A stretch of DNA of 64,000 nucleotides from Pseudomonadota bacterium (GTDB lineage: Bacteria; Pseudomonadota; Gammaproteobacteria; Burkholderiales; SG8-39): assembly GCA_021811085.1 (NCBI GenBank), contig JAJZPQ010000014.1, positions 1 through 64,000 on the forward strand. The letters run 5' to 3'. Below, in pieces: positions 18,710 through 23,190 of this stretch. The notes beneath the pieces are model-generated. The model did no database searches. It was not told where the DNA came from and worked only from the letters and a program-made list of their open reading frames with translations. The stretch's first letter is position 1; each line of letters opens with the position of its first letter. Position numbers and translations under genes: made by a program.

Positions 18710-18816
18710 CAGCAGGGCGCGCATTTGCATGCGCGCCCGAATCAGGCGAAAATTCAATCTTTTATCCCCGGATGGCGGGATTGGCTGGCGTCTTGCGCCG
18801 CAGCTTGAGCGAAACT

Positions 18817-21429
<2,613 letters not shown>

Positions 21430-21460: not shown

Positions 21461-21778
21461 ATGAGCAAAGTCATCGCGATCGTGAGTTTCAAACTGCCGC
21501 AGCAGCAAACGCTGGAGCAGGCGACGGCAACGTTCCAGAGCACGGCACCCAAGTATCTGAACCTGCCCGGGCTGCTGCGCAAGAATTATTTTCTGACCGA
21601 AGACGGCATGCGCGCGGGCGGCGTCTATATATGGGAGTCGCGCCAGGCCGCGGAGCGCATGTACACGCCGGAGTGGAAGGCTTTCGTCAAAGGCAAGTAC
21701 GGCAGCGAGCCCGAAATCGTCTACGTCGATACGCCCGTCATGGTGGATAACGAACAGGGCCGGATCACAAACCTTTGA
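21461..21778 (+). CDS. Small conserved protein, YdhR/monooxygenase-like (dimeric alpha-beta barrel fold)
   Basis: MSKVIAIVSFKLPQQQTLEQATATFQSTAPKYLNLPGLLRKNYFLTEDGMRAGGVYIWESRQAAERMYTPEW. Confidence 0.65.
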   Translation: MSKVIAIVSFKLPQQQTLEQATATFQSTAPKYLNLPGLLRKNYFLTEDGMRAGGVYIWESRQAAERMYTPEWKAFVKGKYGSEPEIVYVDTPVMVDNEQGRITNL

Positions 21779-21881
21779 GCGCGCGCTCTTGCCCGCGCCG
21801 CGCTGCGGGCGGGAGCGGCAGCAGGCAACGCTTGCCAAGCGAGCCGGATTCGTGCTTGAATCCAGGCCGGAGATATCCGAA

Positions 21882-21953
21882 ATGAACCGTAGCTATGCCT
21901 TTTGGTTTTACTTTTACGGCTTTCCCCAGCCGCTGGCGGAGGGATTGAGCTAG
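21882..21953 (+). CDS. Aromatic amino acid leader peptide (attenuator), MNRSYAFWFYFYGFPQPLAEGLS
   Basis: 24-codon ORF with GGAG 9 nt upstream of ATG, run F-W-F-Y-F-Y-G-F, followed by mutually exclusive antiterminator/terminator stems and a DAHP synthase gene. Confidence 0.88.
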   Translation: MNRSYAFWFYFYGFPQPLAEGLS

Positions 21954-21973
21954 GTTCGCACCCAAGTATCCCG

Positions 21974-22011
21974 AAAAACCGCCAGCGCCCGCAGCCTGGC
22001 GGTTTTTTTTT
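21974..22011 (+). terminator. Intrinsic terminator of the DAHP synthase attenuator
   Basis: AAAAACCGCCAG-cgcccgcagc-CTGGCGGTTTTT followed by more T; perfect 12-bp arms. Confidence 0.93.
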
Positions 22012-22119
22012 GCCCGAGAACAAACCATGAATATGACCGCCATTGCAGAAATAACAGTTCCCCCGACGCGGGCAGATGCAAGCGAACGGCTGCAGACTTA
22101 TCGGTATCAAGGAGAAATC

Positions 22120-23190
22120 ATGACGCACAAGGTCGACGACGTCCGCATCCGCGAAATCAAAGAGCTCGCGCCGCCCTCGCATGCGATTCGCGAGTTTCCG
22201 GTGTCCGACGCGGCCGAGCGCGTCACCTATGCGACGCGCCAGGGCATACATGGCATCCTGCACGCCGCGGACGACCGGTTGCTGGTGATCATCGGGCCAT
22301 GCTCGATCCACGATCCCAAATCGGCGCTGGAGTACGCGCGGCGCCTGGCGCAGGAGAAGGCCAGGCACGCGGCCGACCTGCTCATCGTGATGCGCGTCTA
22401 TTTCGAAAAGCCGCGCACCACCGTGGGCTGGAAAGGCCTCATCAACGATCCGCAGCTGGACGGCACGTTCCGCATCAACGAAGGGCTGCGCCTGGCGCGC
22501 AGCGTGCTGCTCGACATCAACGAATTGGGTGTGCCGGCCGGCGTCGAGTACCTCGACATGATCACGCCGCAGTACATCGCGGACCTGGTGAGCTGGGGCG
22601 CGATCGGCGCGCGCACCACGGAGTCGCAGGTGCACCGCGAGCTTGCCTCGGGGCTGTCCTGTCCGGTCGGATTCAAGAACGGCACCGACGGCAATATCCG
22701 CATTGCAGTGGACGCGATCAAGACTTCGCGCCAGCCGCACCATTTTCTTTCGGTCACCAAAGCCGGGCACTCGGCCATCGTCTCCACCAACGGCAACGAG
22801 GACTGCCATGTGATCCTGCGCGGCGGGCCCAAGCCCAACTACGACGCCGCCAGCGTGGACGCGGCAGCGAAGCAGTTGGCGGCGGCCGGGCTGGAACAGC
22901 GCCTGATGATCGATTTTTCCCACGCCAACAGCTCCAAGGACTATCGCCGCCAGATGGATGTCTGCGCCGATGTCGCCGGCCAGATCGGCGCCGGCGACGA
23001 CCGCATCATCGGTGTCATGGTGGAATCGCATCTGCATCCGGGGCGGCAGGACCTGATTCCAGGCAAGCCCCTCGCCTACGGCGTGTCCATCACCGACGCC
23101 TGCATCGGCTGGGACGACAGCGTAAAGATGCTCGAGCGCCTGGCCGAGGCGGTGCGCCAGCGCCGCCTGGTGCACGAGGCCGAAGAGTAG
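22120..23190 (+). CDS. aroG: 3-deoxy-7-phosphoheptulonate (DAHP) synthase, AroG/AroF type
   Basis: ATG at 22120 preceded by AAGGAG; LLVIIGPCSIHDPKSALEYARRL...MRVYFEKPRTTVGWKGLINDPQLDGTF...GFKNGTDGN. Confidence 0.95.
   Translation: MTHKVDDVRIREIKELAPPSHAIREFPVSDAAERVTYATRQGIHGILHAADDRLLVIIGPCSIHDPKSALEYARRLAQEKARHAADLLIVMRVYFEKPRTTVGWKGLINDPQLDGTFRINEGLRLARSVLLDINELGVPAGVEYLDMITPQYIADLVSWGAIGARTTESQVHRELASGLSCPVGFKNGTDGNIRIAVDAIKTSRQPHHFLSVTKAGHSAIVSTNGNEDCHVILRGGPKPNYDAASVDAAAKQLAAAGLEQRLMIDFSHANSSKDYRRQMDVCADVAGQIGAGDDRIIGVMVESHLHPGRQDLIPGKPLAYGVSITDACIGWDDSVKMLERLAEAVRQRRLVHEAEE

Follow-up and report, generated by a model that had tools for sequence, protein, structure and literature searches.

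A probable ribosome-mediated transcription attenuator with mixed aromatic control codons upstream of aroG in Burkholderiales and other Proteobacteria

The aroG locus and its leader

The window considered here (the whole stretch of 64,000 nucleotides that was analysed) carries alaS, an ORF of 105 amino acids 3' of it, a short leader ORF and, further downstream, the DAHP synthase gene aroG (Table 1). The shikimate pathway begins with DAHP synthase, which catalyses the first step in the synthesis of aromatic amino acids and is controlled in E. coli by the TyrR and TrpR repressors. The leader ORF, read directly from the sequence, encodes 23 amino acids (MNRSYAFWFYFYGFPQPLAEGLS) followed by a TAG stop codon, and eight of its 23 codons are aromatic. 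An initial annotation had described this arrangement as a mixed aromatic attenuator ahead of a DAHP synthase gene; the leader ORF, strand and terminator coordinates that it gave are correct letter for letter, and its general reading is supported by the conservation of the control codons, of both alternative helices and of their spacing, as described below.

The aroG product scores 582 bits against the NCBIfam AroG equivalog NF006723 (cut-off 568), with a match beginning at residue 32. Its reading frame is open from 22027, and homology starts at residue 32–36 in most relatives which, together with an AAGGAG motif five nucleotides before an ATG, places the probable start codon at 22120. The 31 open codons upstream of this start (22027–22119) are kept in the nearest relatives (L004 and L085), and automated annotation may pick the wrong start in such cases. 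Two further AroFGH-type DAHP synthases are encoded in the genome (56% and 49% identical), making three in total, so that the single enzyme feeding all branches supposed in the initial annotation has to be abandoned. No such leader was found upstream of the other two genes, and the element at aroG is the only one of its sort found in this genome.

Table 1. Features of the aroG leader region and its neighbourhood (window coordinates)
Feature	Positions	Strand	Remarks
alaS	18772–21429		upstream of leader; named from its translation
105-aa ORF	21461–21778		between alaS and leader
-35 box TTGCCA	21832–21837	+	best-scoring site; same box with 17–18 nt spacing in many family relatives and Oxalobacteraceae
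Extended -10 TGC-TTGAAT	21853–21861	+	20 nt before leader ATG; TGn-TTGAAT conserved in family
SD-like GGAG	21869–21872	+	9 nt 5' of leader ATG; atypical of the class
Leader peptide ORF MNRSYAFWFYFYGFPQPLAEGLS	21882–21953	+	direct reading; orthologous leaders in relatives
Control codons Y5 F7 W8 F9 Y10 F11 Y12 F14	21894–21923	+	direct reading; kept in relatives
Small ("1:2") hairpin CGGCT/AGCCG	21917–21921/21928–21932	+	-5.9 kcal/mol; probably not functional
Antiterminator strand CGCTGGCGG (region 2)	21931–21939	+	inside leader ORF, within codons 17–20
Antiterminator inner stem, 5' arm GGGAT	21941–21945	+	partner 21968–21972
Antiterminator inner stem, 3' arm ATCCC	21968–21972	+	partner 21941–21945
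Intrinsic terminator AAAAACCGCCAG...CTGGCGGTTTTT and T-run	21974–22011	+	folding; pairing in relatives
Shared strand CCGCCAGCG (region 3)	21979–21987	+	pairs with 21931–21939 or, via its first seven bases, with 21996–22002
SD AAGGAG	22109–22114	+	5 nt ahead of probable aroG start; direct reading
aroG (DAHP synthase)	22120–23190	+	probable start ATG 22120; NCBIfam NF006723

Promoter and initiation of the leader

A promoter-like arrangement, TTGCCA-18 nt-TGC-TTGAAT (21832–21861), separates the 105-aa ORF from the leader and is conserved across the family, which suggests that leader and aroG form a unit that probably has its own transcription start. A strict consensus promoter scan did not flag it in the window, as its -10 box has no A at position 2. 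Transcription is predicted to begin at about 21868–21870, leaving a 5' UTR of some 12 nt that carries GGAG. The Shine-Dalgarno (SD) sequence ascribed to the leader in the initial annotation is this SD-like GGAG, which does not typify the class, since an SD-like 4-mer precedes just seven of 97 distinct related leaders.

In 43 of these 97 relatives, the -10 box ends 6–9 nt 5' of the leader ATG, with a peak at 6, 7 and 8 (L061, L069, L075, L077, L082, L102, L104, L105, L153, L161 and L209–L220 are among these loci), and such a spacing predicts a transcription start at the ATG itself and a leaderless leader mRNA. Promoter scores in the relatives average 10.6, against 4.6 in shuffles, and the same placement recurs in a second gammaproteobacterial order, where TGTGTTATCAAT or TGCTATCAAT is found shortly 5' of the ATG. 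Leaderless leader transcripts are therefore predicted for many relatives, their start positions likewise being predictions; a leaderless leader-peptide RNA (rnTrpL) is known for trpL of S. meliloti (PMC7298713).

Control codons and evidence for translation

The aromatic codons are held in frame across relatives while their third bases vary. In the leaders detected, the in-frame TTN triplets of the aromatic block comprise 263 TTT and 160 TTC (423 Phe codons) and not a single TTA or TTG, whereas frame 2 of the same block contains 112 TTA and 36 TTG among 289 TTN. The block was chosen for its aromatic content, and part of this Phe/Leu frame bias is consequently due to ascertainment; the total absence of Leu codons is nevertheless not what U-richness would lead one to expect. 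UGG and UAY codons are kept as well, as are start codons at a fixed distance.

The initial annotation stressed that codons for all three aromatic amino acids are present, which is true of the window, but only partly of the class: Phe occurs in 100% of 93 distinct leaders, Tyr in 96% and Trp in only 57%, with overall totals of 411 F, 183 Y and 61 W. Conservation of the peptide is confined to the aromatic block and to a PLAEG/PLADREG end that is constrained at the RNA level; the C-terminal PLAEG, PLADREG and LLADGTG endings would be the product of the RNA strand GCTGGCGGA rather than of a constraint on the peptide.

Two mutually exclusive helices

The perfect complementarity of CGCTGGCGG to CCGCCAGCG, and the alternative pairing of CCGCCAG with CTGGCGG, both proposed in the initial annotation, are borne out. 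The terminator is formed by AAAAACCGCCAG (21974–21985) and CTGGCGGTTTTT (21996–22007), with nine T at 22003–22011. The folding of the 149-nt region is more stable than expected (z = -2.83), none of 200 dinucleotide shuffles being as good, and the energies of the two structures in isolation are -24.9 kcal/mol for the antiterminator and -20.1 kcal/mol for the terminator.

Masked-ribosome folding, one of the checks that the initial annotation had suggested, was carried out with the leading edge of the ribosome assumed to lie 12 nt beyond the first base of the A-site codon. In nascent RNA extending to 21995, the antiterminator forms with p ~0.99 when the A site is at Y10–Y12, with p 0.64 when it is at F14, and with p 0 when the ribosome stands at the stop codon; it forms with p 0.98 on RNA free of ribosomes, and stalling at W8 also leaves the antiterminator strand free in the window. 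In the full-length RNA at equilibrium, the terminator is preferred in every ribosome state, implying that the outcome would have to be decided kinetically, as it is in comparable attenuators.

Covariation, another of the suggested checks, was counted for the named structures on an alignment of 46 rows (A1). The terminator is paired in 94.6% of cells and the outer stem of the antiterminator in 88.4%, each with three pairs that show changes on both sides, and the covariation of both helices exceeds that of all 500 shuffles and of every slid register; since these shuffles ignore relatedness, the scores are to be read as support and not as probabilities. The inner stem of the antiterminator is less well supported, being paired in 64% of cells, with both-side changes at all five pairs, in a part where the alignment is uncertain. 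The GGCGG core is paired in 46 of 46 rows (with one G-U), compensatory changes being found at the flanking pairs, and its five GGCGG/CCGCC pairs are so nearly invariant that covariation is uninformative about them. The position that follows CCGCC, which may be A, G or U, covaries with both of its alternative partners (U-A, C-G or A-U in the antiterminator; A-U, G-C or U-A in the terminator), as would be demanded of a switch but not of a simple terminator. RNAalifold recovers the terminator from the alignment and not the antiterminator, as the two helices exclude one another. Shuffle tests of the antiterminator duplex at single loci are weak in some cases (p up to 0.68) because the core is only 5 bp long, and the strength of the evidence therefore resides in conservation.

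Spacing is also constrained at the 54 loci measured. The antiterminator strand begins 37–56 nt past the leader start codon, in most cases 8–20 nt beyond the first base of the final control codon, and the T-run ends 117–145 nt from the ATG. At a few loci (L015 and L016), the stop codon lies 36 nt beyond the start of the antiterminator strand, too far for a ribosome standing there to cover that strand.

A small hairpin overlapping the end of the control codons, included in the initial annotation as a "1:2" structure, does exist in the window, but it is not conserved, with 52% of cells paired and covariation below that of the shuffles. It shares only 2 nt with the antiterminator strand, coexists with the antiterminator and does not block it in the folds. 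A role as a conserved protector was therefore rejected, given its lack of conservation and the formation of the antiterminator regardless of it.

Distribution of the element upstream of aroG

The conservation of leader codons and stems at orthologous loci was assessed among AroG relatives from named genomes and from genomes of the window's family and order, with a detector that demanded an ORF rich in aromatic codons, a terminator closely following it, and a strand able to pair with the 5' arm of that terminator. It was positive for 100 of 203 aroG upstream regions (a set to which an RNA model contributed seven loci and which contains a few near-duplicates), whereas one of the 203 reverse strands and none of the 203 shuffled sequences gave a match. 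The element is spread over the Burkholderiales, a second gammaproteobacterial order, Bradyrhizobium and Devosia, the other genera holding it including Burkholderia, Caballeronia, Paraburkholderia, Cupriavidus, Massilia, Janthinobacterium, Rugamonas, Noviherbaspirillum, Oxalobacter, Variovorax and Thiobacillus. In the second gammaproteobacterial order, the leader was found at all 17 aroG loci sampled and the terminator at 16 of them, the remaining sequence stretch stopping inside the terminator. Protein-guided retrieval of loci proved far more sensitive than a sequence-and-structure model (R1), which matched only 7 of 275 genomes, a figure that is not a prevalence, as few candidates were scored per genome.

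The aroG relatives of Rhodocyclus, Thauera, Azoarcus and Dechloromonas have no such element, and no leader was found upstream of aroG in several other genera of the family to which the window belongs, nor in a member of the same genus (L086), from which it follows that the element is dispensable. The AroG of L086 is 90% identical to that of the window while its upstream region is different, marking a loss or replacement of the attenuator inside this genus.

Other loci are unusual in different ways. Two adjacent copies of aroG lie in tandem 3' of the attenuator at L144 (G354:C1:2636357-2638556) and L141 (G471:C1:2562477-2564626), where both copies of the DAHP synthase gene may be under the control of a single leader. 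In a metagenome-assembled genome labelled Anaerolineae (L063), aroG is accompanied by a leader-like peptide, MSRYFSFFSWYGYFAAGQVERAVVRPRDV, and a strong hairpin with no clear T-run, on a contig that is possibly mis-binned.

A model for the control of aroG by aromatic tRNA charging

Attenuators of this class combine a leader rich in codons for the end product, an intrinsic terminator between leader and structural gene, and an antiterminator that depends on the position of the ribosome and excludes the terminator. The first two can be read at this locus, and the third is indicated by covariation together with the masked-ribosome folds; a protector hairpin of trpL type, which is not essential to the class, has no conserved counterpart. 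Taken together, these features make it very probable that the element is a ribosome-mediated transcription attenuator of aroG, with the charging of aromatic tRNAs as its signal.

Transcription would begin about 12 nt 5' of the leader ORF. A shortage of charged Phe-, Tyr- or Trp-tRNA would stall the ribosome at codons 5–12, so that CGCTGGCGG could pair with CCGCCAGCG as the latter emerges; the terminator would thus be blocked, and RNA polymerase would read through into aroG. When Phe, Tyr and Trp are all plentiful, a ribosome reaching the TAG would cover about 21934–21963, including the antiterminator strand; CCGCCAG would then pair with CTGGCGG, and termination in the T-run would yield an RNA of about 142 nt. 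With no conserved protector hairpin, the element is predicted to be ON by default when the leader is untranslated, unlike trpL.

Tentatively, the element may further represent a broad proteobacterial class of aroG attenuators reading three amino acids, with leaderless, SD-free leaders, no protector and a default ON state, which may also respond to the efficiency of leaderless initiation.

Which amino acids, and which kind of element?

Which of the three amino acids would matter most? The dominant ones are probably Phe and Tyr, as the residue frequencies given above would suggest, and one may go further and regard the element as an attenuator that senses chiefly Phe, or else Phe together with Tyr, and in which the single Trp codon is incidental. 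The gene product belongs to the AroG subfamily, whose classical effector is Phe, which points the same way. Against this, any unavailable aminoacyl-tRNA within the run would stall the ribosome, stalling at W8 is compatible with antitermination in the window, and Trp is kept in all four leaders from the same genus or nearest to it that have the element (L001, L004, L084 and L085); such a restricted sensing is a possibility to be taken seriously, without being the reading that we favour. A function in trans of the leader peptide or of the terminated short RNA, instead of or besides the control of aroG in cis, has a precedent in rnTrpL/peTrpL of S. meliloti (PMC7298713), and the terminated product would indeed be a small mRNA; this is nevertheless improbable, given that the peptide is not conserved outside its aromatic block and its C-terminal end, and that the element lies directly 5' of aroG at the loci examined.

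In two further explanations, the leader ORF is there by chance. The U-rich stretch might be an RNA element, such as a binding site for a protein or an sRNA, in which the ORF is accidental, and the U-richness of the block and the usual lack of an SD fit this idea; yet the exclusion of Leu codons from the reading frame (partly a matter of ascertainment) and the retention of UGG and UAY codons and of start codons at a fixed distance make it very improbable. Least credible of all is a plain intergenic terminator with a chance ORF upstream: the preceding gene stops at 21778, with no further terminator-like site detected nearby, but a conserved promoter separates that gene from the leader, the reverse-strand and shuffled controls are almost devoid of such arrangements, and covariation involves three strands. 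Attenuation of aroG in cis thus remains the preferred reading.

Relation to known systems

Neither the window nor any of 18 relatives gave an Rfam match at the gathering score, whether to Phe_leader, Trp_leader and Thr_leader or to the T-box and other families of ligand-binding RNAs in the leader; the best of the weak leader-type matches was Thr_leader, with 21.5 bits where 55 are needed. In the open-access literature, we found no report of the element in Proteobacteria and no description of DAHP synthase control in Betaproteobacteria (Burkholderia, Cupriavidus, Massilia, Variovorax and others), and an earlier mention in subscription papers is possible. The principle is a textbook one, and its widely conserved aroG version seems to be undescribed. 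A single cis switch reading the charging of aromatic tRNAs would explain the control of the common first step, and the element, which has no Rfam entry, would be a ready target for strain engineering.

The general mechanism is that of E. coli pheL-pheA and trpL-trpE (Rfam Phe_leader and Trp_leader), as the initial annotation had recognized, with control codons in a leader, mutually exclusive antiterminator and terminator, and the same logic of charged tRNA. The element of the window differs from these in its mixed Phe/Tyr/Trp codons and in its DAHP synthase target, and its class in lacking a conserved protector (1:2) hairpin and, in most cases, an SD. In S. meliloti trpL-trpE(G), the leader ORF of the leaderless rnTrpL lies at the 5' end of the transcript (PMC7298713), as predicted here for many relatives, but the control codons are for Trp and the target is trpE(G), and for the window itself the prediction is a 5' UTR that is about 12 nt long and contains GGAG.

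The initial annotation also took E. coli aroG as a point of comparison, and in doing so overlooked two closer precedents. One is the uORFC-13-1 motif found 5' of aroF in Acholeplasma, a predicted uORF with Phe codons followed by a terminator, for which attenuation has been proposed (PMC8632094); it differs in being known from 24 sequences of Acholeplasma and unknown organisms only, in its restriction to Phe and in its architecture. The other is aroR-aroF of C. glutamicum, where a Phe-Tyr-Phe leader precedes a DAHP synthase gene that is subject to attenuation under Phe limitation (Neshat et al. 2014, per PMC11802643). Compared by description, this system likewise joins an aromatic leader to a DAHP synthase gene, in an actinobacterium and with a control run of three residues.
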